Below, one piece after another: positions 15,917 to 54,890 of a stretch of DNA of 64,000 nt; positions within the stretch are counted from its first letter, which is position 1; every line of letters begins with the position of its first letter. A program made the translations under genes and the position numbers. Under the pieces are notes generated by a model. It was not told the DNA's origin. It searched no databases and was given only the letters and a program-made list of their open reading frames with translations. The stretch is from a virus: IMG/VR virus record IMGVR_UViG_3300025467_000007, positions 1 through 64,000 of that record; one strand, given 5' to 3'.

Positions 15917-16831
15917 TTATCCTTCGTCAGCTATCTTCTGAAAGAAACTCATATCGAATTCATCATCCGCATTGATCTCAGGCGCCTTTGATGCTATCGT
16001 AGGGGCTGGAGCCGATGGGTATGATGGAGGTGGAGCTACTGGCAACGGATCAGCTGATAGTTGTTCTGCTGTCGGTGTTGCTGTACCACCACTCAATACT
16101 GCATCTAACTTAGCTTTTAACTCGTCATATGACTTAAAGTTAGAAGCAGCAAGAAACTCTGACAGTTTGTGTTGAGCGTTTACTACTTCAAGGATACCTT
16201 CATCTGTAGATGCCACTGAAGTAGGTTCTGCAAACACTGATTGGTCATAGTTAGGATAACCTTCAACAGTACGCATACGGATCTTGAAGTTTGCACCTTC
16301 CCATAAGTCAAACACGTTGACTGGTTTTTCATCTTCAAACGTTGGTCTTGCTTTGTTCATGATCATATCAAATATCTTTTTACCATACTTGAATAGCATG
16401 ACTTTGCCATTGTTTTCTGGGTGTACAGGGTCTGATACAACTAAGATGTTTGAGATGAAGTTTAATCTACGTTTTTGTGTACGTGCGATCTCTTTGTTTG
16501 CATCTGAACCAGAGTTCCATAGCTTGGTGTTAAGTTCACCAACTGGATCGTTCTGACCTAGTGTCGTGAGTGAGTTCTCAATGTACCATTTACCTGTTGG
16601 TCCTTGGAATCCATGTGAGAAGATCTTTACCCATGGTAACTCATCACCTTCCACTCTTGGTAAGAAACGGATAACTGCAGCTGCATTACCTGCTTTATCT
16701 CTTTCTAATTTCCAAAAGCGATCGTCTGTGTAAGACTTAGTATCTGAGGAGGGGTTTACTGTCTTTTCGAATGCTGATGCTATAGCACCGAAGTCTTGAT
16801 TGCGCGAAGCGCGGAGTGTGTTAATGTCCAT
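15917..16831 (-). CDS. gp32: Single-stranded DNA-binding protein gp32
   Basis: A 304-residue protein equal in length to T4 gp32 (301). The basic N-terminus (MDINTLRASR) serves cooperativity, the core has the OB-fold (FLPRVEGDELPWVKIFSHGF, RRLNFISNILVV, NVFDLWEGANFKI), and the acidic tail ends NADDEFDMSFFQKIADEG, the site for partner binding. It coats ssDNA in replication, recombination and repair. Odd point: there is no cysteine at all, so the zinc site of T4 gp32 is absent. Starts at 16831 after AAAAGGAAAA; a late box lies upstream at 16889. Confidence 0.93.
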   Translation of the reverse strand: MDINTLRASRNQDFGAIASAFEKTVNPSSDTKSYTDDRFWKLERDKAGNAAAVIRFLPRVEGDELPWVKIFSHGFQGPTGKWYIENSLTTLGQNDPVGELNTKLWNSGSDANKEIARTQKRRLNFISNILVVSDPVHPENNGKVMLFKYGKKIFDMIMNKARPTFEDEKPVNVFDLWEGANFKIRMRTVEGYPNYDQSVFAEPTSVASTDEGILEVVNAQHKLSEFLAASNFKSYDELKAKLDAVLSGGTATPTAEQLSADPLPVAPPPSYPSAPAPTIASKAPEINADDEFDMSFFQKIADEG

Positions 16832-16923: not shown

Positions 16924-17151
16924 TTATATATCAAGAGTACCTTTTTTGGGGAGGTAGTTATTCTCTATCATGTTCAATTCAATCTTTTGTTTGAGGTTCT
17001 TATTGATTAACTTACTGATATCTTCAGGATCAATGAAGTTCTTTTCACAGTATAGTAAGACTGCATCCATATGAGAGATTCGTTTATCTACCACTAGCTC
17101 TTCAATAAACAAAGCAAACTCATTTGTGGTCTTAAATATACGGCCTTCCAT
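16924..17151 (-). CDS. gp33: Late transcription co-activator gp33
   Basis: A 75-residue acidic protein with the short gp33 pattern of marine T4-like phages: FALFIEELVVDKRISHMDAV, LLYCEKNFIDPEDISKLI, and a C-terminus NYLPKKGTLDI. Gp33 bridges RNA polymerase, the gp55 sigma and the sliding clamp at TATAAATA promoters, which are frequent in this window. T4 gp33 has 112 residues, so this is the short form. It is coupled to the upstream gene by TAATG and lies next to gp32 as in T4. Confidence 0.75.
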   Translation of the reverse strand: MEGRIFKTTNEFALFIEELVVDKRISHMDAVLLYCEKNFIDPEDISKLINKNLKQKIELNMIENNYLPKKGTLDI

Positions 17152-19648: not shown

Positions 19649-20281
19649 TTAAGCTGTGAGTATAGCCAAAGCCTTATCATAGTGGGCTTGTCTCTCTTCG
19701 AGACCAAGATATCCACCATTAATAACCTTCGTCATACCTTTGATATCACCTGCATCAGCAAACCTGTTTAGGTTGTTCTTATTCCAAAACCATAGTGCTG
19801 AGTATAATGAAGTAGGTATATCATCTGTCACGAGGTCTGGATCATCCATCACTGTTTCTGGATCTTCGAAGAAGTCAGTAGCAAACTGTTTATAGTTTGC
19901 CTTACCAGTTAATTGGATTGGTCCTCTACCTCTATACTTCCAACCTTCACCTGATGATTCAGGACCATTACCCATCCTATTTTCATAGATACGGTTAGCG
20001 ATCTTTTCAGGTTGACGATGGTAGTTTGCTGCATCGCCATGAAAGTGTGTAGGGAAGAGTTTAACCAGTGCGTCTGAAGAGTAGTTTAGGTTCTCAGTCA
20101 ACTTTGTAAAATCTAATGACTCATGTGCACATTGAGCAATGAATGCTGTTACCCTTTGTGCAGTAGTTACTTCAAATTGAGGCAACTGTGTAACCATAGC
20201 GTTAAACCAATCATGCACGTTATGGTTACGTGTGATGATCTGACCTAACTTCTCTTCAGTGAAATCGAAATTAAAACTCAT
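19649..20281 (-). CDS. Endolysin, GH19 chitinase-like muramidase
   Basis: A 210-residue protein with the GH19 fold: AFIAQCAHESLDFTKLTENLNYS (catalytic E54 and E63), GPESSGEGWKYRGRGPIQLT, GKANYKQF and WFWNKNNLNRFADAGD. Phage GH19 enzymes cleave the peptidoglycan glycan strands at lysis. No signal peptide, so export needs a holin; the small membrane protein encoded directly upstream overlaps by one base (TAATG) and is a candidate. Confidence 0.9.
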   Translation of the reverse strand: MSFNFDFTEEKLGQIITRNHNVHDWFNAMVTQLPQFEVTTAQRVTAFIAQCAHESLDFTKLTENLNYSSDALVKLFPTHFHGDAANYHRQPEKIANRIYENRMGNGPESSGEGWKYRGRGPIQLTGKANYKQFATDFFEDPETVMDDPDLVTDDIPTSLYSALWFWNKNNLNRFADAGDIKGMTKVINGGYLGLEERQAHYDKALAILTA

Positions 20282-26634: not shown

Positions 26635-28644
26635 CTACTTAGATTGTGCCCTAAAAGTGCCATCCCATTCAGCCGGGAGGCCCTCTTCCATACGTTCAAT
26701 CATGTTCATGTAGTACTGCTTGATGGTTACGCTGTCATCTTCGACCAAACCTTTGGCCCATTTGATAGCTTTATCCCAGTTTCCACGATAGTATTCTTTT
26801 ATGTATTCATTATGCGCGTGTTTAACTGTCTCACCGATCGTGTAGATCTTAATGCCTTCAGTCTTACCTTTCACTGCGATGTTATCTAGTTCAATAACGT
26901 TGTAATGGTCTTTAACTAGTTCTGCTGTGCGTGCACCTAAAACAAGCTTAACACCGTACGGCTTAGATTGTCCTTCAAGCCTTGACGCCAAATTGACTCC
27001 GTCACCGAGACAAGTATAGTCAAAACGCTGGCTAGAACCCATATTACCCACAACGACATCAGCAGTGTTAATACCAAGTCCCATCCCGAAAGCCGGTACG
27101 CCTTCTTTAGCAATCTCTTGATTGAACGCATCTAAGTCTCCTAACATTGATAGTGCAGTCTTAACTGCGTTGAGAGCATGATCTTTATCATCAAGTGGAG
27201 CATTCCAAAAAGCCATCTGTGCATCACCAATATACTTATCAAGTGTTCCGTTGTTCTCTATGATCTTAGCAGTCATAGCTGTCATGTAACGATTCATGAT
27301 CTTAGTTAAGCCTTGTACATCCTTACCATAGTGTTCTGATATGGTTGTGAAGCCTCTTACGTCTGTAAACATGATACTTAATTCTCTTGTTTCACCACCA
27401 AGCTTTAATAGTTCTGGGTTCTTTTGTAGTTTATCAACCATTGCTGGTGATAGGTATGTACCAAACTGTTTCTTGATCTGTAGTTTTTGGTTTAACTCGC
27501 TTACAAACTTAACAGTATATGTATGAGCATATACGATAGCCAAAGCAACGATAGGAAAAATCCCATCCAAAAGAACGCCGTAATGAGAGAAAACATAACT
27601 AGAAGCGTAATACAAAAAGCCAAGAAGAAGCAAAATAGGGATAATAGCATATTTCCACCTTGATAGGATAATGATAAAGATTGATAATAATATGACTGCT
27701 AATACTTCAGCGCCATCTGCCCAGCCAGGTCGTGATATGCTAGTACCTGATGTGAGCGTGTCTAGAACTGACGCTTGAAGGTAATGAGGAAAGAGTCCAC
27801 CTCGAGCTGTTGCAACTGGGTTGTTAAGTCCCTTTGCGGTAAGCCCAACAATGACGATACCTCCGTTAAATGATTCTGGGAGGTCCATAAGACTGTGTTC
27901 AATTGGAGTCGAGCTCCAGTCGACCCAGATACGACCGATTGGGTCGGTTGTAATTTTGGAGAAGCTTGGGATTCGAACAGCTTCGATTCCTGAAACGGAA
28001 GATTTGACTTGGAAACTTGGGTCTCCGACTGCGACACGCAAAGTTTCGAGAGTAATACTTGGGTAGAGCAAGCCTCCGCTTGATACGACCATAGGGATAC
28101 GACGAACAACACCATCAATTTCAGGTAAGACATTTACAACTCCTATTCCAGCAGCTTTGTTATTAAATAGTTCAATGTTAGGTTGGATCCCAGGGTAATC
28201 AATAGTGAAGTCATGAGCTGGTGATCCAATCTCAGAGACTCCCGGTCTAAATGCTTGTCTAACTTGTTTATCTGTCGATGCTACCTGAGGTAAGACGACA
28301 GGGTGTCCAGCAAGACTATCAACCAAGTTGGCATCGCGTCCAAAGCGATCAGAGTCAGGCATAAAGATATTAAAAACAACAAGACCAGCATGACGGTGAT
28401 AAAGATCCTCGATAATATTTGCATATTGACTCCTTGGAAATGGGAATTGACCAAGTCTTTCAATCGACTTATCATCGATGTTAACCACGTGGACTTGCTT
28501 GGAAACGGTCTGTGGTTTACTAGTAATTAGTGTATCAAAGTACCTTAGTCGAACTGACTGCACAAAAGATGGGTCAGATGCTCTAATACCTACTAGCAGA
28601 GCTAACGTTAACAGTGCAAACCAGGGTGATAATAATCTTTTCAT
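26635..28644 (-). CDS. CHASE2 sensor adenylate cyclase, class III
   Basis: A 669-residue membrane enzyme making cAMP. After an N-terminal membrane helix, residues 30-300 form an extracytoplasmic CHASE2 sensor (VVNIDDKSIERLGQFPFPRS, FNIFMPDSDRFGRD). Three further membrane helices (313-376) lead to a class III cyclase domain (420-610). Both metal aspartates are present (MFTDVRGF, D428; KYIGDAQMAFW, D474), K470 and T544 fit adenine recognition, and N551 and R555 in GDGVNLASRLE are the transition-state residues, so it should be active. In bacteria such enzymes often sit next to FecR proteins, and a FecR gene lies 2 kb upstream here. An origin by transfer from a host is likely. Confidence 0.9.
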   Translation of the reverse strand: MKRLLSPWFALLTLALLVGIRASDPSFVQSVRLRYFDTLITSKPQTVSKQVHVVNIDDKSIERLGQFPFPRSQYANIIEDLYHRHAGLVVFNIFMPDSDRFGRDANLVDSLAGHPVVLPQVASTDKQVRQAFRPGVSEIGSPAHDFTIDYPGIQPNIELFNNKAAGIGVVNVLPEIDGVVRRIPMVVSSGGLLYPSITLETLRVAVGDPSFQVKSSVSGIEAVRIPSFSKITTDPIGRIWVDWSSTPIEHSLMDLPESFNGGIVIVGLTAKGLNNPVATARGGLFPHYLQASVLDTLTSGTSISRPGWADGAEVLAVILLSIFIIILSRWKYAIIPILLLLGFLYYASSYVFSHYGVLLDGIFPIVALAIVYAHTYTVKFVSELNQKLQIKKQFGTYLSPAMVDKLQKNPELLKLGGETRELSIMFTDVRGFTTISEHYGKDVQGLTKIMNRYMTAMTAKIIENNGTLDKYIGDAQMAFWNAPLDDKDHALNAVKTALSMLGDLDAFNQEIAKEGVPAFGMGLGINTADVVVGNMGSSQRFDYTCLGDGVNLASRLEGQSKPYGVKLVLGARTAELVKDHYNVIELDNIAVKGKTEGIKIYTIGETVKHAHNEYIKEYYRGNWDKAIKWAKGLVEDDSVTIKQYYMNMIERMEEGLPAEWDGTFRAQSK

Positions 28645-28772
28645 TTGATAGCGTGTGTCTTGTTATGTTTTAAACTCTTCTTGATTGCTTTCTTCCAAAG
28701 CTTCTCTTCTTTTTTAGGCTTATGCTTAACGCATGCCTTATACATCTTCATTATTAGTTCTTTAACTTTCAT
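28641..28772 (-). CDS. Small basic protein coupled to the cyclase, 43 residues
   Basis: MKVKELIMKMYKACVKHKPK followed by more Lys-rich sequence (about 18 of 43 residues are Lys). AAGGAG precedes the start, and its stop overlaps the cyclase ATG (ATGA), so translation of the two is coupled. Probably a helical, nucleic-acid-binding or leader peptide; unknown. Confidence 0.6.
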   Translation of the reverse strand: MKVKELIMKMYKACVKHKPKKEEKLWKKAIKKSLKHNKTHAIK

Positions 28773-28773
28773 G

Positions 28774-29664
28774 CTATGCTCCTTGTATTTTAAACTTAAT
28801 ATACTCTGTTATCAAGTCAGCGACGTCAGTCTCACAATACTGTTCAAACCCTTTAAATCCTGGGTTTGAGTTAGCTTCGCATACTCTAAAGCCTCTTTTG
28901 TCGAATAGTAAATCCACACCTGCAATATCTAGCTTAAGTACTTTTGCAGTCTCTCTAGCTATATATTCAATCTCGTCTGTTATCTCGTAGTTATGACCAG
29001 TGCCACCATTAGTGATGTTAGCTCTGAAGTCACCCTCTGGTGCTGTACGTCTCATAGCTCCTACTACTTTACCACCTATGACAAGAACCCTTAAGTCCTC
29101 ACCTGGACGGTCACCAAGATATTCCTGTACTATCATCGTCTTCTTAGCGTTTAAGATATCGATGAACTCCATCATCTTTTTGTACTCTCTTATGGTCTCA
29201 CAGAGGTGTACACCTTCCCCATAAGAACCTGATACCAGCTTAACGACACACGGAAAGCCTATGTTATCAGTCACTAAGTCATCGTCTATAGGCAACCTTA
29301 CTAACATCGTGTTTGGTATAGGTAACCCGTTCTTACTTAATATCTGTGATGTCCTTAGCTTATCTTTTACTATCTCGACAGCAGAGCTTGAGTTAACACA
29401 CATCACGCCTGCTTGTTCAAAGTGTCTTATCACTGCTAGCTGGAAAGGTAGTATGCCTGCACCCAACCTAACCAATAATAACTTTGGTAACTCTATCGTC
29501 TCACCGTCGTACTTGATACCTTCACGTAGGTCTTTATCTACGATGATGTCAAAGTTATCAGGATGGCAGACACGAGCAGTTATACCTTTTGATGTAAAGC
29601 TTTCTACGAGCTTATTAGTCTCGTACTCGTTTCTTTCCTGCTTTGATAATATAATTACAGTCAT
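28774..29664 (-). CDS. rimK: RimK-like ATP-grasp ligase
   Basis: A 296-residue ATP-grasp enzyme. Order: substrate-binding N-domain (LLVRLGAGILPFQLAVIRHF), VKDKLRTSQILSKNGLPIPN, the ATP-grasp core FPCVVKLVSGSYGEGVHLCE, EYLGDRPGEDLRVLVIGGKV, and the metal motif FRVCEANSNPGF. RimK adds glutamates to the C-terminus of ribosomal protein S6; relatives modify other peptides. A phage copy could retune host ribosomes or tag a phage peptide. The -10 is 5 bases from ATG 29664, so the mRNA is leaderless. Confidence 0.85.
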   Translation of the reverse strand: MTVIILSKQERNEYETNKLVESFTSKGITARVCHPDNFDIIVDKDLREGIKYDGETIELPKLLLVRLGAGILPFQLAVIRHFEQAGVMCVNSSSAVEIVKDKLRTSQILSKNGLPIPNTMLVRLPIDDDLVTDNIGFPCVVKLVSGSYGEGVHLCETIREYKKMMEFIDILNAKKTMIVQEYLGDRPGEDLRVLVIGGKVVGAMRRTAPEGDFRANITNGGTGHNYEITDEIEYIARETAKVLKLDIAGVDLLFDKRGFRVCEANSNPGFKGFEQYCETDVADLITEYIKFKIQGA

Positions 29665-29669
29665 GACAC

Positions 29670-29699
29670 ATTATAACTTATTATTTAATTAATGTAAAA
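29670..29699 (-). promoter_or_regulatory. Phage promoter family member (TTTTAC-18-TATAAT)
   Basis: TTTTAC plus ATTAATT, 18 bases, TATAAT; 5 bases before ATG 29664 (leaderless). It gives the RimK, 43-residue protein and cyclase genes their own promoter, separate from the curli genes upstream. Confidence 0.75.
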
Positions 29700-30053
29700 T
29701 TATTCGAAGCCTTCGTTGCGTTTTACACGCCATACATAAGACATCTGTGTTCCATCTGGCCTATCATCATTGATAAGTATACGCTCACCGTTTGGTAAGT
29801 TAAAGATGATGTCGTCAAACCTAATATCATGTTTCTCTAAGAACTTTATAGTATGCTTCTTAAGATACTTTGGTCTAGCAGTAATTAAGATTATATGGTC
29901 CTTTTCAGGTATAGTATCCCAAAACTCTTTAACACCAGGCAATAACTTATCTTTACATACCGCAGACTTTAATAGGTTATACCTTAATATAGTCCCATCA
30001 AGATCGATAAACCAAGTCTTGCGATGTTTAGACTTTAAGTTAGTTAACTTCAT
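29700..30053 (-). CDS. HAD-superfamily phosphatase
   Basis: A 117-residue HAD protein: WFIDLDGTILRYN (nucleophile Asp and DxD), HIILITARPKYL (motif II Thr), a Lys region, and RILINDDRPDGTQ (motif IV DD). The small size with little cap resembles phosphatase halves of polynucleotide kinase or sugar-phosphate phosphatases. Substrate not known. Follows the DUF4337-type gene without spacing. Confidence 0.78.
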   Translation of the reverse strand: MKLTNLKSKHRKTWFIDLDGTILRYNLLKSAVCKDKLLPGVKEFWDTIPEKDHIILITARPKYLKKHTIKFLEKHDIRFDDIIFNLPNGERILINDDRPDGTQMSYVWRVKRNEGFE

Positions 30054-30617
30054 TTATAGTGGTAACCAGAGCCATAAACCTTGTGACATCAATACTACAC
30101 CAACCAAACATAATAGGAATGATGAGTAGAATAATGGCATTGATACAGCAAGGATAGACGCTGATAACAACACGATAGATAGCTGATAAGCTGTACCTGC
30201 ATAACCGATCCATGGAGATCTCTTCTTAGCATAGTCACGGTCAGCTTCTAACTTCTTAGCTGTATCATATAATGCAGGTTTTCCTTCTGGTCCTTCATCA
30301 TAGCTTTTAGCTTTTACTGCAAATTTCTTAGCTAGATCTGGGTTTGTAGCAGTCTGAGCTGAGATCTCATACTGTGTTTGCTTTACTGATTTAGCTTGGT
30401 AGAAGTTCCATAAGTCGTTTGCTTTGATCGTGTTGTTCATGATGAGTGAACCTAATGAACCTCCGAACCATACGTTAAATGCCAATAAAGCAGCAAATAT
30501 ATTAATGATTAAACCCGCATGTGATTTAATCTTAACCTCTTTTTCTGATCTTGAAGGTCCAATGTTCTTAGTCTCTTCCTTTGTTAATGTCTTAATGACC
30601 ATATCTTCTAAAGCCAT
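30054..30617 (-). CDS. DUF4337-like membrane protein
   Basis: A 187-residue protein with membrane helices near residues 36-60 (INIFAALLAFNVWFGGSLGSL) and two at 140-185, and between them a helical domain with NDLWNFYQAKSVKQTQYEIS, which is the hallmark of DUF4337 proteins found in bacterial genomes. Function unknown. It sits downstream of FecR in the curli cluster, so it may belong to the transferred unit. Confidence 0.7.
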   Translation of the reverse strand: MALEDMVIKTLTKEETKNIGPSRSEKEVKIKSHAGLIINIFAALLAFNVWFGGSLGSLIMNNTIKANDLWNFYQAKSVKQTQYEISAQTATNPDLAKKFAVKAKSYDEGPEGKPALYDTAKKLEADRDYAKKRSPWIGYAGTAYQLSIVLLSASILAVSMPLFYSSFLLCLVGVVLMSQGLWLWLPL

Positions 30618-30618
30618 G

Positions 30619-31683
30619 TTAGTTTCCTTTTTGATTGATGGTTATACTATTGGTCGTTTGGTCTTGATTTTTTAAATTTACCGTTACGCCATTTTGTATA
30701 ATATTTATATTGTATCCTTTATCTTTATCTATTAATACTGTAGCACTATCTTTAACTGTTCTTTGTATCATCCAATATGTTTGTTTGTCAAAAATATAAA
30801 CTTGATTTAGAGCATTATATCCTACAACAAAAGTAGCTAACAATGTATTATCAAGAGCATTTGTTAAATAGTTTGTATCAAGAGGATTAACATCTAGTTC
30901 ATTGAAACCCGCATATGGGTCTTTAAATACTTTTGAATCTAATGCATTTTGTTCCAATCCTGTAAACTCTAAAGCAGAACCAGATTTATTGGCTATTTCA
31001 GCTTGTATTCTTTCAACAACTTCTTTTGGAGGTTTAACGATAAGCATATTATCAATAGCTGATTCTGATAAAGCTAATAGAACAGGTTTAAGAGGTTTAA
31101 TTTCTGATGATTTTGTTACTGTAGCTTGAAATGCTTGGTTTAAAACAACTTTTCCCATAGCTGTGCTAACTTCAATTGAACCAACTGAACCATCTGGATT
31201 AGGTAATAAAATAATGAGAGATTGACCTATTTCATCTACTGTCATTGTGAATGCTGTACCACGAACAGCAACAGTTGCCGTTGGTGTATTAATAGCCACA
31301 TTTTTATTATTTTCATGGGCAATATTACCAGATGCATAACGAACAGTTCCCATTGTTACATTGAGAGCTAATTTACCTGCACCTTTTTTATTGGGGTCAT
31401 AGACAAAATCGTCTATAAGAAGTTTTGAATGTTCGGTAACACGAACTTGTGTGTTATCTTCAAATGTAATGCCTACTATTCCATTGCCTGTTTGAACAAT
31501 ATCATTACTATCTATATTTGATTTAGGTTTAGCCTCTATTACATCTTTATTTCTAGTAATAGAGGCTGGACCTTTTTGTTCAGTTATAGAACCAATTACC
31601 GCCCAACTAGTGTTGGATGACAGACACAGAAGCACCGCTACCAGTAAGGTTAACGATTGCACTATTTGGGTTGGTCGTACCAT
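30619..31683 (-). CDS. FecR-domain periplasmic protein with curlin-like C-terminal tail
   Basis: A 354-residue exported protein (signal peptide ending near SSNTSWA). Residues 30-190 are a FecR domain: VIGSITEQKGPASITRN, DIVQTGNGIVGITFEDNTQV, LNVTMGTVRY and the TPTATVAVRGTAF motif. The last 30 residues (INIIQNGVTVNLKNQD, SITINQKG) look like a curlin repeat (I-x-Q-x-G, N). FecR proteins relay surface signals, and in bacteria they often accompany CHASE2 cyclases. Its first 77 bases overlap the end of the curlin gene in another frame; no later start would keep the signal peptide. Confidence 0.82.
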   Translation of the reverse strand: MVRPTQIVQSLTLLVAVLLCLSSNTSWAVIGSITEQKGPASITRNKDVIEAKPKSNIDSNDIVQTGNGIVGITFEDNTQVRVTEHSKLLIDDFVYDPNKKGAGKLALNVTMGTVRYASGNIAHENNKNVAINTPTATVAVRGTAFTMTVDEIGQSLIILLPNPDGSVGSIEVSTAMGKVVLNQAFQATVTKSSEIKPLKPVLLALSESAIDNMLIVKPPKEVVERIQAEIANKSGSALEFTGLEQNALDSKVFKDPYAGFNELDVNPLDTNYLTNALDNTLLATFVVGYNALNQVYIFDKQTYWMIQRTVKDSATVLIDKDKGYNINIIQNGVTVNLKNQDQTTNSITINQKGN

Positions 31684-32314
31684 CTTGAGTCACACTTATA
31701 TTATTTGAATTACCAATGTTGTTAATACTAATACTATGGCCTGCACCAGCACCAGTACCATTTGCACCTGTTTGGCTTGTGGTGATACTGTTATTGTTAC
31801 CTGCAATTGCTATAGTATCTGTAACATTTTTACTGTTTATGGTACTTGTTATCGAATTACTATTTCCTACAGTAGTGATGCTATAGTTATAATTACTCGA
31901 ATCTCTCATTGTTCCTATATTCAATACAGAATTATTGTTACTACCTGAAAACGATAAATTTAAATTACCGTTATCAGTACCAAAGTTTCCGTAATTCAAT
32001 ACGATACCGTTACTATTACCATCTTGAGATATTACTCCTGTAGAACCACCACCAACAAAATTACCTGTGATAGAGTTGTTCATACCGTTTTGTGTGATAC
32101 CTAAATTAATACTGTTACCATCAATCACAAATGATGGACTACCAACATTAGTAGGATCTCCTACCGTGTTGTTAGAACCTGTTTGTGTTATGGTGACTGT
32201 AGAATTATCAGCGTTAGTTTGGTCAATATAAACACTATTACCTCCACTATCGACTGCCAAAGCACTAAATGCTAATAACAAACCCATCACAAAAGTGATA
32301 AGCTTACTTTTCAT
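31607..32314 (-). CDS. csgA: Curlin-repeat amyloid protein (CsgA/CsgB-like)
   Basis: A 235-residue exported protein from ATG 32314, placed behind AAGGAGAAAAAG; signal peptide MKSKLITFVMGLLLAFSALA. The mature part has about eight imperfect repeats with the curlin consensus of Gln-x-Gly-x-x-Asn ladders: VTITQTGSNNTV, LGITQNGMNNSI, GVISQDGNSNGI, SVTQDGTTNPN and a final VSVIQH. Curlins polymerise outside the cell into amyloid fibres after export through CsgG. It overlaps csgG upstream by 11 bases and fecR downstream by 77. Major and minor subunit types cannot be told apart. Confidence 0.83.
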   Translation of the reverse strand: MKSKLITFVMGLLLAFSALAVDSGGNSVYIDQTNADNSTVTITQTGSNNTVGDPTNVGSPSFVIDGNSINLGITQNGMNNSITGNFVGGGSTGVISQDGNSNGIVLNYGNFGTDNGNLNLSFSGSNNNSVLNIGTMRDSSNYNYSITTVGNSNSITSTINSKNVTDTIAIAGNNNSITTSQTGANGTGAGAGHSISINNIGNSNNISVTQDGTTNPNSAIVNLTGSGASVSVIQH

Positions 32315-33086
32315 TCTTTTTCTCCTTAAATTGCCACATACCTTTTTTTTCACCTTGAATAATCAATTGCTCTACCGCCAGGTCTGTAGCTGCTTTTATG
32401 GCGTGTATAGAAGCCTCTGTTTGAGATATTCCTATCTCTTGTTCAAAATTTTGTGTTCCATTATCAAAAAACTTAAATATAGCTACACCTGCTGTATAAC
32501 TCAATATGGTTTTTTGAGCGTTTACTGTTAATAGCACTTCACCTGTTTGTGTGCTAATTGCTCTTATGCTTACAGTTACAACATCTTCTTGATATTGTGT
32601 GTCTGGTCCAATTCCTAACCAACGAACACCAATACCACCTGTTCTTATGTTTGTATCGTAACTTATAATACCTCCTTCAATAATCATACCTGCATATAAC
32701 ATAGGTCTGATACCAGAAGGATCTTTTGCTTCATCTCTTGCTGAACGAATTAATTGTCTTTCTTTTAATAAATTATCAATACCAACTCGTTCTACTATTC
32801 TAAACCATTTTCCGTCACCAGCATCTTCTAATGACTTTAACAATACTGTTTCACCACCTTGTGTTACAGCGGATGATAACTTAGCAATCGTAGCAGAATC
32901 TTTTCTTTGACCAGTTTTATCAGCAAAGCTATAAACAGCTACAACTACTTTACCATTAACAGGTTCAGGTAACGGAGTCTTAGCCCATTTCATTGGCATA
33001 AGCTCTGGTTCTTTTTTAATAACATTCATTGGCGGTGTGCAACCAATTACTGCTATACACATAAGTGCTATTAATATTTTTTTCAT
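32304..33086 (-). CDS. csgG: Curli secretion channel lipoprotein CsgG
   Basis: A 260-residue lipoprotein with the lipobox VIGC (C16) and the CsgG core: KVVVAVYSFADKTGQRKD, SSAVTQGGETVLLKSLEDAG, WFRIVERVGIDNLLKERQLI, GMIIEGGIISYDTNIRTGG, VTVSIRAISTQTGEVLLTV. Near the E. coli length (277), with both transmembrane hairpin regions represented, so it should form the nonameric outer-membrane pore. It is encoded between CsgF and the curlin, as a compact operon. CsgE is missing. Confidence 0.9.
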   Translation of the reverse strand: MKKILIALMCIAVIGCTPPMNVIKKEPELMPMKWAKTPLPEPVNGKVVVAVYSFADKTGQRKDSATIAKLSSAVTQGGETVLLKSLEDAGDGKWFRIVERVGIDNLLKERQLIRSARDEAKDPSGIRPMLYAGMIIEGGIISYDTNIRTGGIGVRWLGIGPDTQYQEDVVTVSIRAISTQTGEVLLTVNAQKTILSYTAGVAIFKFFDNGTQNFEQEIGISQTEASIHAIKAATDLAVEQLIIQGEKKGMWQFKEKKNEK

Positions 33087-33087
33087 A

Positions 33088-33525
33088 TTAGAAACTTAAT
33101 GTTCCAATAGGAATACTAACTTGCGTCACATTACCATTTTGATCATTAACAGTCATGTTAATCATGTCAGCTGTTTTGGTGTATGTAATAGTATTACCTT
33201 CAATGGTAACAGTTCCACTATTTTGTGGATTCTCACCAAACAGATTATTAATTAATTGTGTAGATAATTGAGCATAGACTCTGCTCTCAAAGTTAGTCAA
33301 GAACTTGGCTAATATAGTATTATTAGCGGCATTTGCTGCATCAATGGCTGCCTGTTTCTGTGCCGCTTCTATTGCTTGCTTGCGTGTGTATTCTGTGTTC
33401 TCGATAGTCTGTACATGAGAACTATATCCTATCCCAGAGAAGGAAGGAGATTTAAACTGAAATACTTGTTCCGCATAAGCGTTACTGCTTATCAGTACTA
33501 CTGCTAGGATCCTGGCGAGCTTCAT
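33088..33525 (-). CDS. csgF: Curli assembly factor CsgF
   Basis: A 145-residue exported protein (signal peptide MKLARILAVVLISSNAYA). The mature N-terminus reads FQFKSPSFSGIGYSSHVQTI, matching the CsgF segment that plugs into the CsgG channel, followed by a helical Ala/Gln region and a beta C-terminus. CsgF couples secretion to nucleation at the cell surface. Starts inside the upstream membrane-protein gene (44-base overlap) and ends 1 base before csgG. Confidence 0.87.
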   Translation of the reverse strand: MKLARILAVVLISSNAYAEQVFQFKSPSFSGIGYSSHVQTIENTEYTRKQAIEAAQKQAAIDAANAANNTILAKFLTNFESRVYAQLSTQLINNLFGENPQNSGTVTIEGNTITYTKTADMINMTVNDQNGNVTQVSIPIGTLSF

Positions 33526-33763
33526 TCTTCTCTTTCTCTCTTAAAGACAGAATAACGTTCACCTTTTGATTGAGCCTAATAAGATCGTTGTCTAACATAC
33601 GAATACGATCTATCAGTTCAATCAATACCTTATTTGAATCACCTAAAACTGGTTTAATTTCTTCTGTTACCCACTTCCATACATAAAAGATTAGATAACC
33701 TAATCCTCCAGCAGCAATAATGGGAAACCCATATTTGTTAATTAAAAATGCTATATCACCCAT
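33482..33763 (-). CDS. Small membrane protein with coiled coil, holin-like (copy 2)
   Basis: A 93-residue protein: one N-terminal membrane helix (KYGFPIIAAGGLGYLIFYVW) followed by a heptad-like helix (LIELIDRIRMLDNDLIRLNQ). The GFPI helix plus short coiled coil resembles BhlA/UviB-type holins, and its neighbour at 33765 has the same plan, so the pair arose by duplication. Located directly before csgF. Confidence 0.65.
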   Translation of the reverse strand: MGDIAFLINKYGFPIIAAGGLGYLIFYVWKWVTEEIKPVLGDSNKVLIELIDRIRMLDNDLIRLNQKVNVILSLREKEKNEARQDPSSSTDKQ

Positions 33764-33764
33764 G

Positions 33765-34040
33765 TTAATCCCTTCGGGCGTCAGATTGTTCTGCTCTTGC
33801 TATTCTATCCAAATCAGGTGGGATACCTAAGGCATGACTTACTTTGGTATCTATACGAATGACGTCATGATTCATAGCTGCGACTCTTTTGTCAAGGGCT
33901 ATGATAATACCACTCATGCCTTTAACTCCAGATGTTACACCAGCTAAGATAAATTTGAGGGTTAAGAAAACGAAATATCCTCCAGCAAGAGCTGAGGCTA
34001 TGGGAAATCCTACCTCTCCGACTAACTTAAGAAAATCCAT
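33765..34040 (-). CDS. Small membrane protein with coiled coil, holin-like (copy 1)
   Basis: A 91-residue protein: EVGFPIASALAGGYFVFLTL membrane helix, then ALDKRVAAMNHDVIRIDTKV helix. Paralogous in layout to the next gene. The late box TATAAATA ends 5 bases before ATG 34040, so this gene is probably the first of a late, leaderless transcript through csgF, csgG, curlin and fecR. Confidence 0.65.
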   Translation of the reverse strand: MDFLKLVGEVGFPIASALAGGYFVFLTLKFILAGVTSGVKGMSGIIIALDKRVAAMNHDVIRIDTKVSHALGIPPDLDRIARAEQSDARRD

Positions 34041-34045
34041 ATAGC

Positions 34046-34053
34046 TATTTATA
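34046..34053 (-). promoter_or_regulatory. T4-type late promoter box in front of the curli cluster
   Basis: TATAAATA, minus strand, 5 bases before ATG 34040, in the 17-base gap after the upstream gene. It would place the small membrane proteins and the curli genes under late control. Confidence 0.6.
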
Positions 34054-34057
34054 TAGA

Positions 34058-35146
34058 TTATGTCTTAGTTTGGAGTTCGTCTATCTCTTGTTCTATAGTC
34101 TTATCAGGGTGTTCTGGGATATGATCTGCAGGCATCTTGGTTGGGTGCCAAGCTTCCTCAGTTGCTGGACTGATATACTCGTCAGGGTTAATACTATCCT
34201 CATAGTGCAAACCATGGTTGCCGTTCTGAGCTACAGTATCTATACGACTCTCATCCCAGTCTGCTTCTTCTGGGAGGGGTGTAGGATCTGGTTCAAGCCA
34301 CTTACGTTTACGAGGCTTTTTCTTTTTAGGAGGATCAATAGGGTAATTGAGCCAAGGTTCTAGGTCCTCAGGTTCTACTTTAGGTTGACTTTTTTTTAGC
34401 GACCAGTTGACTGCTACTAACATTAGCACGGCAAGTGGATCGAACACTAACACGATCATGATGATGACCCAACGGACAGCCTTTTCAAGCATGGTTTGGT
34501 CTAGAGTATCACCATAGATGAGTGCTGCGATGTACTTGATAGGACCAACCTCAGCCTCGATCTTACGGGCTTGAGATGCCACGGGCGCACGTTCACCTTG
34601 TAGCTTAACTATAGCTGCCTGAGCTGATGAGATATCGTTCTGTAGTCTCTTACGTTCTGCACCCTGTGATCGTCTAATCTGTACAGCTTTGTCTGCTCCT
34701 TGTTCGTCTGTAGATCTACTTAACTTCTGATCCACCTGAGCATCCATCTGAGCTAATGCTTTACGAGCTGCCTCGATGTTATCACGCTGTGTCTTGATCT
34801 TTTCATCAAAGATCTGTACTTGTGCTGATACGTCTCCAGCTGGGACAGCTTGGTCAAGGTGAGCTTTTGATAAGAAACCAAAAATACCCATAGATGTAAT
34901 CATCATGAGGATAATTACTGCTGTAGTAAAGTAGATCCTAAATGTATTAGGAACATCTTGCCAGTTTCTGTATAACCATGAGGCTACGACTAACTTAGAT
35001 ACTTCAAGTATCCCACCCATGATGATGATTGGAACTACGGCTGCAGCAAATATAGCTGTTAAGCCTGCAATAGAGTAGAACGCAGCGATACAACTCAGCG
35101 ATATTGCTGATACAAACATTATGCTCGTCATTACTTTATCGTTCAT
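34058..35146 (-). CDS. Membrane protein with coiled-coil domain, unknown
   Basis: A 362-residue protein. Three hydrophobic segments at residues 10-60 and 72-92 (SIAGLTAIFAAAVVPIIIMG; YFTTAVIILMMITSMGIFGF), then a long coiled coil (110-200, IFDEKIKTQRDNIEAARKAL), another membrane helix (WVIIMIVLVFDPLAVLMLVA), and a Pro/Lys-rich tail. Recalled as conserved in marine myoviruses; function unknown. It may assemble in the inner membrane with the small protein encoded just upstream (4-base overlap). Confidence 0.72.
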   Translation of the reverse strand: MNDKVMTSIMFVSAISLSCIAAFYSIAGLTAIFAAAVVPIIIMGGILEVSKLVVASWLYRNWQDVPNTFRIYFTTAVIILMMITSMGIFGFLSKAHLDQAVPAGDVSAQVQIFDEKIKTQRDNIEAARKALAQMDAQVDQKLSRSTDEQGADKAVQIRRSQGAERKRLQNDISSAQAAIVKLQGERAPVASQARKIEAEVGPIKYIAALIYGDTLDQTMLEKAVRWVIIMIVLVFDPLAVLMLVAVNWSLKKSQPKVEPEDLEPWLNYPIDPPKKKKPRKRKWLEPDPTPLPEEADWDESRIDTVAQNGNHGLHYEDSINPDEYISPATEEAWHPTKMPADHIPEHPDKTIEQEIDELQTKT

Positions 35147-35433
35147 TTTTTCTTTGTTCTAGCTCTTGTCTCTACAATAAGAGCATCTTGTATACGGATC
35201 TTATCGTCCTGTGCCTTAATTTGTTTCTTTAAATCTTCTATACGTTCGATCAATATTAGATCTTCTGAGTTTAGGTTATTCCATCTACTCGTTGCTTCAT
35301 CTATACGTTTATTTTGATAGACGATCTGCTCATGATAATCCACCATCTGGATATAACACATGAATGATGTATATAAACATGCAGCGCATAATAACGTTAA
35401 CATGAATCCAATTACTCTCAACTTAATTCTCAT
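35143..35433 (-). CDS. Small membrane-anchored coiled-coil protein
   Basis: A 96-residue protein with one N-terminal membrane helix (VIGFMLTLLCAACLYTSFMC) and a charged helix (EDLILIERIEDLKKQIKAQD). Overlaps both neighbours (ATGA to the 362-residue membrane protein). Likely a partner of that protein; unknown function. Confidence 0.65.
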   Translation of the reverse strand: MRIKLRVIGFMLTLLCAACLYTSFMCYIQMVDYHEQIVYQNKRIDEATSRWNNLNSEDLILIERIEDLKKQIKAQDDKIRIQDALIVETRARTKKK

Positions 35434-35854
35434 ACTTTATATGACTCCTATGTACACGACAGTTCACGATCCCATTATACCACTTATCTGGGTTTTCTAA
35501 TACTTCATTTTGCATTTGTAATTTTGCTTCAAAATAACTTGCGGTACCTTTGGATAAGCAAAACATTAGGATTTCCCGTTTGAACTTATCTTCTCCTAAT
35601 GCCTTGACATCATCTATTACTTCTTTTGATGAGGACCAATATGTCCTCCAATCTGATTCTATCTTGCTGCGGATTTTCTTTTTCTTTTTGTTACCGTTTT
35701 TAAGCGTAACTGTTCTTGTAGCAGTCTTAGAAAATTTAGTGAGTTTCTTACCAATATACTTTTTATTGGTAATGCAGTTAGTAATGATATATACAAACCC
35801 AACATATTTATCGTCAATAGTCTCAACGGGCACATTGTTGTACATCCATGTCAT
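35423..35854 (-). CDS. GIY-YIG nuclease, Seg-like
   Basis: A 143-residue protein with the complete N-terminal motif GFVYIITNCITNKKYIGKKL, a basic insert (KNGNKKKKKIRSK), WRTYWSSS, and the catalytic Glu region SKGTASYFEAKLQMQNEVL. No DNA-recognition extension such as NUMOD is present, so it may be a resident nuclease rather than a mobile homing enzyme. ATGA overlap with the zinc-ribbon gene upstream. Confidence 0.8.
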   Translation of the reverse strand: MTWMYNNVPVETIDDKYVGFVYIITNCITNKKYIGKKLTKFSKTATRTVTLKNGNKKKKKIRSKIESDWRTYWSSSKEVIDDVKALGEDKFKREILMFCLSKGTASYFEAKLQMQNEVLENPDKWYNGIVNCRVHRSHIKYEN

Positions 35855-35994: not shown

Positions 35995-36974
35995 TATTGG
36001 GCTCCTCCCCATACATCTTCCCATGAACCTTTAAGTGCACCCTTCGCATAGTCGGTTACACGGTTCTCAAAGAAGTTACCATGAACTGGAGCATTGATCA
36101 TCTCCTCAACCCATGGTAGCGGGTTCTTTTTAACTTTAAAAATACCTTTTAATCCGAGTGAGATCAAACGCCTATCAGCGATGTAACGGATGTATTGTTT
36201 AACATCTACTGGCTCTAACTCTCTCATGTGTGTACCTGAGAATGATAAATCAATAAACTTATCTTCGAGTTGAACCATCTTCTCAGCTATAGTATATATG
36301 CGACCCTTCAAGTCATCATTCCATATCTCGTTGTTCTCTTTGATAAATGTTTTAAATAGCTTAATCATGTTCTCAGCGTGCATAGTTTCATCAACGATTG
36401 ACCATGTAACGATCTGACCCATACCTTTCATCAAACCATGACGAGGAAAATTAAGCAGCATGATAAAAGAACTAAAAAGCTGCATACCCTCCGTGAAAGC
36501 AGAGAATACTGCGATGTGCGTTGCAGTTGAAGATAAGTCACCGTTTTTCGAACTGAGTTCCGTAACATAGTCGTGTTTGTCCTTCATTTCTTGGTATTCA
36601 AGGAATTCATTATATGTAGATTCTGGCATACCTAACGTCTCAATCAAGTGAGAGTATGCTGCGATATGTAATGCTTCGCGAGCCGCAAAGCCCATAAGCA
36701 TCATTCGAACTTCTGGTTGAGGGAAGTATGGTAGGTAGTTCTTAACATAACCGCCGGCAACGTCGATGTCACCTTGCGTAAAGAACCTAAATATATTAGT
36801 AAGGAACTGCTTCTCTTCCTTTGTTAACTTCTTCTTCCAGTCCTTAACATCTTCTGCCATAGGAACTTCTGTATGTAACCAATGTGCCTGTTCATGTTTC
36901 AACCATGCGTCATATGCCCATGGATAATTGAATGGCTTAAAGTATTCTCTCGTATCGGTTAATTTGTCTGCCAT
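35994..36974 (-). CDS. nrdB: Ribonucleotide reductase class I beta subunit NrdB
   Basis: A 326-residue radical-generating subunit for dNTP synthesis. Metal ligands and radical Tyr are in place: FTQGDIDVAGG (Asp), REALHIAAYSHL (E100, H103, radical Y107), FTEGMQLF (E162), DETMHAENM (E196, H199). The C-terminus ends KGSWEDVWGGAQ rather than the usual alpha-binding acidic tail. It is separated from nrdA by four other genes. TAATG couples it to the genes on both sides. Confidence 0.93.
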   Translation of the reverse strand: MADKLTDTREYFKPFNYPWAYDAWLKHEQAHWLHTEVPMAEDVKDWKKKLTKEEKQFLTNIFRFFTQGDIDVAGGYVKNYLPYFPQPEVRMMLMGFAAREALHIAAYSHLIETLGMPESTYNEFLEYQEMKDKHDYVTELSSKNGDLSSTATHIAVFSAFTEGMQLFSSFIMLLNFPRHGLMKGMGQIVTWSIVDETMHAENMIKLFKTFIKENNEIWNDDLKGRIYTIAEKMVQLEDKFIDLSFSGTHMRELEPVDVKQYIRYIADRRLISLGLKGIFKVKKNPLPWVEEMINAPVHGNFFENRVTDYAKGALKGSWEDVWGGAQ

Positions 36975-37516
36975 TAGATGTTCAACTCTTTCTTTAGTTC
37001 GTTAAATAAATTCATACAATGATCAAATCCTGCTATTGCTTCGTCTAATAGATCTATACTTAACTTAGAGTCTATGTATGCAATGCATGCAGGTCTATCT
37101 TCAAATGCATAAGCATGACTGGGTCCTGGTACTAACTTACCTATCATCTTACCACCGTATAAATCACCCATATGTCTTACATATACATGAGCCATGATCT
37201 GGTCTGGTCGACTATCAGCTAAAGATAATAGATGAAACATGTAATTCTTTGTACTTATATAAGGTGCCACGATAGTTCCACCTAACTCTGCAATATCAAG
37301 TGATATCTTATGAGTACGTCTAAGGTCTTCCATACCTTCAAACAGCCCATGAACTGTAGCGCATGCTTCTAGTGTAGAGTATATATGCCACATCTGTTGA
37401 AGGTATGTAAGATAGTGTTCCTTAGTTATCTTACCAGTGAACATATACTGGACAAAATCAGATCCTTCGACCTCTTTGTGTTTTGCTCGAGTATGTTCTG
37501 TAAGTATCGTTGCCAT
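36974..37516 (-). CDS. ho: Heme oxygenase-like protein
   Basis: A 180-residue protein of the heme oxygenase fold: LTEHTRAKHKEVEG gives the proximal His (H13), YLQQMWHIYSTLEA the first helices, and HVYVRHMGDLYGGKMIGK the distal helix with its Gly-rich kink (GDLYGG). It would cleave heme to biliverdin, CO and iron. Cyanophages pair it with bilin reductases, none of which is seen here; iron release or heme signalling is an alternative. One-base overlaps with both neighbours. Confidence 0.82.
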   Translation of the reverse strand: MATILTEHTRAKHKEVEGSDFVQYMFTGKITKEHYLTYLQQMWHIYSTLEACATVHGLFEGMEDLRRTHKISLDIAELGGTIVAPYISTKNYMFHLLSLADSRPDQIMAHVYVRHMGDLYGGKMIGKLVPGPSHAYAFEDRPACIAYIDSKLSIDLLDEAIAGFDHCMNLFNELKKELNI

Positions 37517-38232
37517 TACTTAGCGATTGGTAAGTTAAACTTAATACCAGTTGCTTGCTCGATTGCTGGTACAGTTGTTTGATACTTAGGCAAGTCTTTA
37601 ACGGGTAATGCAGCGTTTGGCATTAACCATGCAGTAACTTTCTTACTATTCTTTTCATAAACGATCTTATATAAACGAGTAGGGATACCTAAACCACTAC
37701 CGATCTTTTGATAACCTTGATCCCAAATACCACCAGAGATAACATAGAAGTCTGTGTTTGGTGTTGCAACCCATTGACGTTCATATGTTTCTGCTTGTTT
37801 CCAAATACCACGATTGTTGTTAGCTACTTGTGGAACCATGTTTGATAAGTTAAAACTCTCACTCATGATCGCATCGCTCTGTGTGTTGTTACCTGCTGGT
37901 GCCATATGACCGCGGTCATGTGTTTTACCAACGATAGCATAGTCAGCTAGGGATGCTGAACAGTTAGGTGTTACTAATGCATCAGGGTGAAAATTATCTT
38001 TACGTTTTGCTGGTCCACTGATTGCTGCTTTTGTTAAATGCTCAAACACTGCTTCTGGAGCTTTAACATCACAACGATGGATTACTGCATAGTTTAAATG
38101 ACATAACTCTTGGTCACCTGCTTTTGCTGTATATGTTGGTAATGCTGCTTCAAACTGACTGCAGTCTTTTAAACCTGCAAATGCTGCTGTTGTTGCTGAT
38201 GCAAAAAATAATGCTGCTATAATCTTTTTCAT
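37516..38232 (-). CDS. Exported DNA/RNA non-specific endonuclease (NUC1 family)
   Basis: A 238-residue protein with signal peptide (MKKIIAALFFASATTAAFA) and the DRGHMAPAGN motif (catalytic H109), followed by NLSNMVPQVANNNRGIWKQA with the metal-binding Asn. Four cysteines may form disulfides. The nuclease would act in the periplasm or outside the cell, where it could destroy incoming DNA of competing phages or recycle nucleic acid; both are inference. Coupled to heme oxygenase (TAATG). Confidence 0.87.
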   Translation of the reverse strand: MKKIIAALFFASATTAAFAGLKDCSQFEAALPTYTAKAGDQELCHLNYAVIHRCDVKAPEAVFEHLTKAAISGPAKRKDNFHPDALVTPNCSASLADYAIVGKTHDRGHMAPAGNNTQSDAIMSESFNLSNMVPQVANNNRGIWKQAETYERQWVATPNTDFYVISGGIWDQGYQKIGSGLGIPTRLYKIVYEKNSKKVTAWLMPNAALPVKDLPKYQTTVPAIEQATGIKFNLPIAK

Positions 38233-38427: not shown

Positions 38428-39867
38428 TTATGTCCAGACCCTATAGTTTTCGTAAGCACATGGATTTTTTGGATCCAACTCTCTGTAGAATAAACTGTTG
38501 ACATCTTTGAATGGTGTCCATTTTGTCTCGACGAATGGGACTTTACCTAGATATGGGTCAGCATACTTCAATACGAAGTCATATGGTATTGCTTCTGGCT
38601 CCACATAACCTTCATTAGGATTCTCTATTGCCCATATCATTGCACCTAACATTGATGCAACAACCTGTAATGATGTAGCGTTCTCTCCTGGTATTAGTCT
38701 CCTTGCTTCCTCGATAGTTAACTGTGAACCGTGCCACATACCAAAGTCATCCCCCAATAATAGCACACCTAATTCATCCATACCACCCACGATCTCATCC
38801 TTAGCGATGCGTAGTTTAGTATGTAGATCTAACTCTTTACCTCTCATCTCATGTACTGAAGCGATAGCTGCATCACATGGTTGATAGACGTAGTATACTG
38901 ATGGCCTAAACGATTTATCTTTAGTTTCAAAGTATTCTGATATCGTTACAGCTTCTGAGTGTTGGATATGGAAGCCATTGTATTGACCACCTAATGGAAC
39001 CCATGATCTTAGTAACACTGATACACCGGGTTGGAATAGGTATGCAGTGTTACCTTGTGCTTTACCATTCTCTGGGTTAGTATCTTCGTGTGTACCCCAA
39101 CCCATCTCAGCGGGAGCTCTACCTTCTGCCCAAAAACCTTCACATGACCATGTATTTACAAACTCATTCTTTTCTTTTGGTTCACCAAGGACTTGTGTGT
39201 CACGTTCTGCAACATGTACTACCTTAACACCAACCTTCTTCATCAACTGTGCCCAACCTTCTTTATCGGTTGGTACTACATACTTGATGCCTTTCTTTTC
39301 TGCTAACTTGAGTAACGCTCTCTTAGTAAGGTGTGTCACCAAACCAGGGTTTGCACCATGAGTTCCAACAACCGTTGCTGCACCTTTGTACTTCTCTGCC
39401 ATAGCACGAACTTCTTTATGAGTATGGTATAGTGTACGTTCTGCTAGTTTAGGGATAGTCTCGTCTGGTTCATCTTCCCATCTTTCAAGAGATGTATTGA
39501 TGTAATGAACACCATGTTTTAAACACCATTCAAGGATCTCAAGTGCACCGATGTTTAGTGATACATCGATAACAAACCCACCTTCATCTACATACTTTGA
39601 TAGTGTAGATTCTAAGTTATTCCTTAAGATCTCTTTCTTAATGTATGTGACTGCAGACTTACCATTACGTTCTTTAAAAGTTTTTTCGTTCTCACCCTTC
39701 TCAAGCACTATAATGTTAGATGCTTCAGATGTGATGTGTCTAAGGATTATTGGTAAGATCGCTTGACCTACAGATCCATAACCTAAGATCAAGATCTTCC
39801 TACCATCAAACTTTACATACTTCTTATTTTTATAGTCTATGAACTTACTAAAATTTTCTATTGCCAT
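38428..39867 (-). CDS. hss: Homospermidine synthase
   Basis: A 479-residue enzyme of the saccharopine dehydrogenase-like family, equal to bacterial homospermidine synthase in length (about 477). An NAD-binding motif is at residues 25-38 (ILILGYGSVGQAIL); later motifs include VSLNIGALEILEWCLKHGVH YINTSLERW, VVGTHGANPGLVTHLTKRAL, TWSCEGFWAEGRAPAEMGWG and YYVYQPCDAA. It makes homospermidine from putrescine and/or spermidine. Polyamines neutralise packaged DNA and support growth. The gene is inserted within the ribonucleotide reductase operon, next to nrdA. Confidence 0.87.
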   Translation of the reverse strand: MAIENFSKFIDYKNKKYVKFDGRKILILGYGSVGQAILPIILRHITSEASNIIVLEKGENEKTFKERNGKSAVTYIKKEILRNNLESTLSKYVDEGGFVIDVSLNIGALEILEWCLKHGVHYINTSLERWEDEPDETIPKLAERTLYHTHKEVRAMAEKYKGAATVVGTHGANPGLVTHLTKRALLKLAEKKGIKYVVPTDKEGWAQLMKKVGVKVVHVAERDTQVLGEPKEKNEFVNTWSCEGFWAEGRAPAEMGWGTHEDTNPENGKAQGNTAYLFQPGVSVLLRSWVPLGGQYNGFHIQHSEAVTISEYFETKDKSFRPSVYYVYQPCDAAIASVHEMRGKELDLHTKLRIAKDEIVGGMDELGVLLLGDDFGMWHGSQLTIEEARRLIPGENATSLQVVASMLGAMIWAIENPNEGYVEPEAIPYDFVLKYADPYLGKVPFVETKWTPFKDVNSLFYRELDPKNPCAYENYRVWT

Positions 39868-41717: not shown

Positions 41718-41725
41718 TATTTATA
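41718..41725 (-). promoter_or_regulatory. T4-type late promoter box upstream of nrdA
   Basis: TATAAATA, minus strand, about 32 bases before ATG 41685; the leader contains TTGGAG as ribosome binding site. It overlaps the galE stop. Late expression of a nucleotide-synthesis gene would be unusual, so an extra early promoter may exist. Confidence 0.5.
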
Positions 41726-49116: not shown

Positions 49117-49124
49117 TATTTATA
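49117..49124 (-). promoter_or_regulatory. T4-type late promoter box for the Ig-like structural gene
   Basis: TATAAATA, minus strand, 25 bases before ATG 49091; the leader has AAGGAG. Together with the terminator at 48117 it frames a monocistronic late unit. Confidence 0.7.
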
Positions 49125-51702: not shown

Positions 51703-51703
51703 A

Positions 51704-54427: not shown

Positions 54428-54429
54428 TC

Positions 54430-54888: not shown

Positions 54889-54890
54889 AT

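Follow-up and report, generated by a model that had tools for sequence, protein, structure and literature searches.

A T4-like phage record carries the pelagiphage curli cassette, with an exported-type FecR protein and a CHASE2 adenylyl cyclase as conserved members

Curli secretion genes have been described in phages by Zaragoza-Solas et al. in 2020 (PMC7029224) and Buchholz et al. in 2022 (PMC9004378), who reported CsgF/CsgG, and by Wittmers et al. in 2022 (PMC9599517). In the latter report, the pelagiphage type VIII secretion system (T8SS) module of podo- and myoviruses has the layout HK-CsgF-CsgG-CsgA/B-FecR-(CsgA/B)-AC (HK, histidine kinase; AC, adenylate cyclase), and phage curli cassettes are reported to be widespread in the ocean. 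The function of these cassettes is a puzzle, and the reading given in that report is of FecR as an iron regulator. In bacteria, genetics has established that NsrA of Sinorhizobium meliloti is required for cyclic AMP (cAMP) signaling through CyaK (PMC7529298; also PMC13001267), and in Burkholderia biofilm control, a FecR-LysM protein adjoins a CHASE2 kinase (PMC5192318). Here we analyze a curli cassette on the minus strand of IMG/VR virus record IMGVR_UViG_3300025467_000007, from an uncultured phage. The window comprises bases 1 to 64000 of the 160,126-bp record, and its gene content (with baseplate and tail genes, named by eye) is of the T4-like myophage type.

The core of the locus is the already published pelagiphage curli cassette, to which the window adds a member, not a new kind. 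It begins with two paralogous membrane proteins of ~90 amino acids (aa), designated here sm91 (positions 33765 to 34040) and sm93 (33482 to 33763), both assigned to PHROG 18771. These are followed by the curli pore accessory CsgF (33088 to 33525; Pfam PF10614, E = 9e-18), the outer-membrane curli secretion channel CsgG with a lipoprotein-like signal (32304 to 33086; PF03783, E = 1e-48), and a curlin-repeat fiber subunit of the CsgA/B type with a signal peptide (31607 to 32314; Curlin_rpt, E = 2.5e-6, four stretches), for which the ATG at 32314 is favored over the listed GTG start at 32353. Next come a 354-aa FecR-domain protein (30619 to 31683; Pfam FecR, E = 7e-9) and, after a variable slot, a 669-aa CHASE2 receptor adenylyl cyclase (26635 to 28644). 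The genes are tightly packed, with overlaps or gaps of 0 to 1 nt; the exceptions are a gap of 17 nt ahead of sm91 and one of 35 nt ahead of the RimK gene in the slot. CsgF, CsgG, and the curlin-repeat protein are encoded next to one another with Pfam matches above the cutoff, and FecR precedes the cyclase as in OM43 phage Melnitz (L002) and SAR11 phage HTVC008M (L003). In both of these phages the gene order is identical, and the cyclase, FecR, and CsgG relatives share 37 to 46% identity with the window proteins by tblastn or profile alignment (41 to 46% for CsgG). A first-pass annotation had named the cyclase, RimK, HAD, DUF4337, FecR, curlin, CsgG, and CsgF genes as one minus-strand island, and all of them lie where it placed them.

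To what extent these genes form a unit was assessed from two IMG/VR scans, which returned 151 loci that were annotated with iterated profiles built from the window proteins; removal of FecR proteins at least 90% identical left 67 nonredundant loci. IMG/VR contigs are fragments, and presence was counted where enough flanking sequence was available. Over the 67 loci the order sm91-sm93-CsgF-CsgG-curlin-FecR-[slot]-cyclase is near-invariant. Every one of the 57 loci having at least 4 kb upstream of FecR contains CsgG, CsgF, curlin, sm93, and sm91, and the cyclase is found in 48 of the 49 having at least 6 kb downstream. Conversely, of 59 cyclase loci for which 5 kb or more of upstream sequence was available, 56 also contain FecR. 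The grouping noted in the first-pass annotation is thus far above chance, the core order recurring in dozens of other phage contigs, and FecR, the CHASE2 cyclase, and the curli genes constitute a conserved phage unit. As to the accompanying suggestion of a reorganized host unit, a local assembly was not borne out, the core being a widespread phage cassette in the published descriptions (PMC7029224, PMC9004378, and PMC9599517).

A T4-type late promoter box, TATAAATA, lies at positions 34053 to 34046 on the minus strand, 5 nt before the sm91 ATG at 34040, and its position is conserved across relatives. In 32 of 64 nonredundant loci the exact box is found no more than 80 nt upstream of sm91 (2.8 expected from 200 shuffles, with a maximum of 8), and the form NATAAATA occurs within the same distance in 49 of the 64. 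Before the later genes the exact box is scarcely seen: 0/64 for sm93, 3/64 for CsgF, 0/65 for CsgG, and 0/67 for both curlin and FecR. Upstream of the cyclase it was found once in 62 loci, with box variants slightly in excess (10/62, versus 2.5 expected). Within the window, 10 of 13 exact TATAAATA sites lie 4 to 57 nt before a start codon in the sense orientation. The simplest interpretation is a single late polycistron. As a separate observation, an exact late box is also present at 41718 to 41725, 32 nt before nrdA, which is unexpected for a nucleotide-metabolism gene.

The FecR proteins of the family have signal-peptide-like N termini. In the AlphaFold 2 (AF2) model of the window protein, a FecR domain (residues 31 to 190) is joined by a flexible linker to a separate C-terminal beta domain (residues 281 to 351), which ends in a curlin-like repeat pattern in which Q351 is invariant and Q330 is kept in at least 90% of members. 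The modeled FecR domain superimposes on the periplasmic signaling domain (CSSD) of PupR (Z = 15.3; root mean square deviation [rmsd], 2.6; 135 residues) and on the cell-surface anchoring domain 5ix9 (Z = 10.1; rmsd, 2.0; 73/76 residues). These likenesses were found by fold only, a sequence profile search of PDB having yielded no credible relative of FecR. Weak NCBIfam matches are to surface adhesin and lipoprotein models (Lsa33 and LipL45). Sequence features and model together point to an exported protein whose FecR domain probably acts in the periplasm and whose curlin-like tail probably touches or caps the fiber. For the curlin itself, the AF2 model has a beta-solenoid pattern (predicted local distance difference test [pLDDT] score, 81), with CsgA 8c50 as the best VIA-align match (Z = 18.9, at a high rmsd of 8.7). 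Foldseek alone gave the curlin model no significant match, the likeness to CsgA depending on VIA-align.

The cyclase matches CHASE2 (E = 4e-38), the class III cyclase domain (E = 1.5e-18), and, over its full length, PHROG 35576 (E = 6e-282); its nearest solved relatives are bacterial adenylate cyclases. The class IIIb residues D428, K470, D474, T544, N551, and R555 (numbered by alignment) are intact. By the established roles of these positions in class III cyclases, D428 and D474 bind the two metals, K470 and T544 serve in adenine recognition, and N551 and R555 bind the transition state. The catalytic residues are kept in 31 of 40 representative phage cyclases.

The first-pass annotation had also remarked that FecR and CHASE2 proteins are often neighbors in proteobacteria. 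This held in our comparison, a CHASE2 protein being encoded downstream of FecR on the same strand in seven of eight plasmid loci chosen by FecR similarity. Plasmid records served as the source of bacterial relatives because one single-sequence cyclase scan of genome contigs gave only a weak Treponema match. Five loci encode CHASE2 cyclases (S. meliloti, Methylocystis, Ruegeria, and two other rhizobia), and two from Burkholderiaceae have a FecR-OmpA-CHASE2 arrangement; in Neorhizobium the cyclase lies ~2.5 kb away. The S. meliloti pair is nsrA-cyaK itself, with the FecR domain detected in NsrA at an E value of 2e-15. FecR and CHASE2 proteins are thus encoded side by side in both phages and plasmids, with three slot genes and a small open reading frame (ORF) intervening in the window, and we regard the phage FecR as belonging to the bacterial FecR-to-CHASE2 pairing that includes NsrA-CyaK.

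Where the cassettes differ is in the stretch from FecR to the cyclase, the slot. FecR is followed directly by the cyclase in 21 loci, in 19 of them with a 4-bp ATGA-type overlap, while in 36 loci a slot of 363 to 4,447 bp intervenes; the contents vary between phages. In the window the slot holds a DUF4337 membrane protein (30054 to 30617; PF14235, E = 3e-24), a small HAD-like phosphatase with a DLDGT motif (29700 to 30053; PHROG 1238, E = 1.9e-9, weak in Pfam), and a RimK-family glutamate ligase (28774 to 29664; E = 3e-49; TIGR00768, 228.6 bits against a cutoff of 143.4). To these is added a 43-aa basic ORF (28641 to 28772) absent from the first-pass account, all four on the minus strand. RimK occupies the slot in this clade only and is missing from nearly all relatives, and HAD is found in few of them. 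In viral scans that included several short fragments, no core cassette gene was nearby in 10 of 15 loci with RimK relatives and in 66 of 80 with DUF4337 relatives. Because the slot content changes and the majority of RimK and DUF4337 relatives are not located near curli genes, RimK, HAD, and DUF4337 are clade-specific, interchangeable passengers, and we rejected them as members of the functional unit. Their inclusion in a single sensory-secretory unit, as first proposed, does not stand; that relatives of RimK and DUF4337 occur mostly without curli genes is, for these genes, an outcome that the proposal had named as its own refutation. The 43-aa ORF occurs in seven sequence variants with no match in the families tested, its end position relative to the cyclase start being constant; it was dropped as a universal cassette member, being confined to one group.

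Most other slot-bearing loci encode a second curlin protein in the slot. It has a signal peptide and combines curlin-like repeats at the C terminus with an N-terminal domain that differs between phages (PA14 in HTVC008M, with no Pfam name elsewhere). This feature of the T8SS module is frequent, not universal, and is lacking in the window; throughout the 160-kb record no curlin-repeat protein was detected besides that at 31607 to 32314. Such second curlins, found for example at L003:10638-11963, L010:425-1708, L015:4748-6271, and L149:10325-11818, look as if the fibers show swappable domains. Further slot cargo comprises small lipoproteins, a secreted DNA/RNA nonspecific endonuclease with a signal peptide (L065:4096-4875, L075:9221-9976, L080, and L112), and a metallophosphoesterase with a GT4 glycosyltransferase (L015:6283-8015, L077:8096-9998, and L144:11613-13341), for which Pfam confirms the enzyme classes only. 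The latter two genes resemble the PlcP-Agt phospholipid-remodeling pair. The window has a paralogue of the slot endonuclease too, at 37516 to 38232 and thus not in the slot.

Overall, we read the locus as a phage unit for type VIII (curli) secretion that is transcribed late and brings its own sensor across the envelope, a reading to which we give a probability of roughly 0.6. The gene unit and its order, the late box, the exported-type architecture of FecR, and the catalytic residues of the cyclase are as described above; the mechanism would run as follows. The CsgG/CsgF channel would be made late in infection, and curlin secreted through it would probably form surface amyloid on the infected cell. 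The exported FecR, with its curlin-like tail, would stand between the periplasmic CHASE2 domain on one side and the fiber or pore on the other, and its FecR domain might, by analogy with NsrA-CyaK, be the partner of CHASE2. The state of secretion or of the fiber might then be relayed to the adenylyl cyclase, raising cAMP late in infection, with cell clumping, a superinfection block, and lysis timing as candidate benefits. A fuller version is more tentative, and we consider it a good deal less probable than the general reading. In it, the curlin-tailed FecR would be located at the pore formed by CsgG or on the amyloid as it grows, serving either for retention, as a module, or as a nucleator replacing CsgB, and its periplasmic domain would switch the CHASE2 cyclase, so that successful display of amyloid late in infection is converted into cAMP and a complete trans-envelope circuit results. 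The slot would then be an exchange site for fiber-displayed domains and other cargo.

Several observations weigh against this interpretation. The tail of FecR is not called as a curlin repeat by Pfam, and the AF2 models are of moderate quality (for FecR: pLDDT, 75; predicted template modeling score, 0.54). The eight plasmid loci are a small, nonrandom sample. The catalytic Asn is replaced by Ser in 5 of the 40 phage cyclases, that of Melnitz included, so activity may not be universal. No cyclic nucleotide monophosphate-binding protein was detected in the phage record, and any cAMP target must therefore be in the host. CsgE (PF10627) had zero matches in the record. Finally, clumping was not seen by Buchholz et al. 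in Melnitz cultures (PMC9004378).

Foremost among the alternatives is the possibility, raised by the same authors, that the cassette is a lysis device in which CsgG/CsgF, as a pinholin or gated pore, set the time of lysis, the curlin and the sensor being secondary. Late transcription would suit lysis timing, the CsgE gate is absent, and the two leading membrane proteins, sm91 and sm93, could be holin-like. A pore alone, however, needs neither the curlin kept in 57 of 57 loci nor the second curlin present in many others. The window also has a separate GH19-like lysozyme gene (19649 to 20281, recognized on inspection), and a lysis function leaves the conservation of FecR and the cyclase unexplained. 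We regard it as unlikely.

Less probable again is the iron-dependent regulator proposed for FecR by Wittmers et al., with a histidine kinase before the curli genes (PMC9599517). The name of the FecR domain family and the gene neighborhood speak for it. Regulators of sigma factors or iron of this kind are recognized by a cytoplasmic anti-sigma domain and/or FecR_C, both of which the phage FecR lacks: among 50 family members, the FecR domain PF04773 stood alone in all 50, with anti-sigma or FecR_C domains in 0/50. The features of the phage protein do not fit a regulator of the FecI-FecR kind. In the window as in Melnitz and HTVC008M, the two genes before csgF encode small membrane proteins (~90 to 115 aa) in which no kinase domain was found. 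From position alone we infer that sm91 and sm93 may be the one or two "HK" genes of the published module, and we read the leading genes as small membrane paralogues instead of histidine kinases.

Marginally weaker still is the two-stage program put forward in the first-pass annotation, whereby RimK and the cyclase would be expressed early from leaderless promoters, for signaling, and the curli genes late. Its late half was correct in that the curli genes are preceded by the late box. Of the leaderless early promoters, that of RimK exists as a string, a sigma70-like TTTACA-17-TATAAT at 29670 to 29698 on the minus strand that ends 5 nt before the ATG; it is readable in only one clade, and sites of such quality are at chance level (5 sigma70-like sites matching at 11/12 positions in the window, versus 2.8 expected [range, 0 to 7]). 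None was found for the cyclase, the start codon of which shares the sequence ATGA with the stop codon of the 43-aa ORF here and is coupled directly to FecR in many relatives. RimK is missing from nearly all relatives, a single late box stands at the head with scarcely any farther down, and translation of the cyclase is coupled to that of the preceding gene; two separate stages are improbable. Least probable of all is a role of the cyclase, independent of curli, in disturbing Pycsar- or CBASS-like cyclic-nucleotide defense of the host through the nucleotide signals that it makes, since the PADLOC PycC models that match its cyclase domain (best, 1.3e-24) share the general class III cyclase fold, whereas the protein has CHASE2 and adenine-type K/T residues and is fixed behind FecR, with no adjacent Pycsar effector and no PADLOC match among the neighbors tested.

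Around the cassette, genes for a 96-aa and a 362-aa membrane protein (34058 to 35433, minus strand) form the high end of the island; they were excluded as cassette members because their position is irregular in relatives. Immediately before the island lies one of three GIY-YIG-like (homing) endonuclease genes (12793 to 13365, 35423 to 35854, and 56650 to 57249). Heme-oxygenase-like (36974 to 37516) and homospermidine-synthase-like (38428 to 39867) genes adjoin nrdB, which is present in the window together with nrdA. These genes, like a single-stranded DNA-binding-like gene at 15917 to 16831, were named by eye from their sequences. A homologue of the late coactivator gp33 is encoded at 16930 to 17133 (E = 1.3e-12), which also speaks for late transcription of the cassette. 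Proteins of 860 and 907 aa (49120 to 56663) contain numerous degenerate copies of a KEEVEQIDELSKKTLGSYVKKA-like motif. An Rfam search of the region found zero RNA families.

What is new here is the evidence for FecR as an exported, curlin-tailed partner of a membrane cyclase, with the other genes of the island interchangeable. With FecR and CHASE2 paired, the cyclase acquires a partner that can be tested, and the phage cassette is tied to the genetically studied NsrA-CyaK. Core genes can be told from passengers by the late box, which is conserved, and the slot, which varies; a single neighborhood could not have shown this. The window agrees with the pelagiphage T8SS module (PMC9599517; HTVC008M and Melnitz) in the order of CsgF, CsgG, curlin, FecR, and the cyclase, but has DUF4337, HAD, RimK, and the 43-aa ORF in place of a second curlin. 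Our reading departs from that description in taking FecR as an exported CHASE2 partner and the head genes as membrane paralogues, not histidine kinases. With Escherichia coli curli (csgBAC/csgDEFG) it shares CsgG, CsgF, and the curlin repeats, whereas the phage record is without a CsgE match or a recognized separate CsgB and has FecR and the cyclase added. NsrA-CyaK likewise has a gene for a FecR-domain protein beside that for a CHASE2 adenylate cyclase, but NsrA is a 1,200-aa protein with tetratricopeptide repeats and a predicted outer-membrane barrel, whereas the 354-aa phage FecR has a C-terminal beta domain of ~70 aa with a curlin-like tail and is encoded within a curli operon. The Burkholderia BiofilmReg operon (LysM-FecR plus a CHASE2 histidine kinase; PMC5192318), in turn, resembles the cassette in combining an exported FecR-domain protein with a CHASE2 sensor and a link to biofilm, and differs from it in its two-component output and its lack of curli genes.

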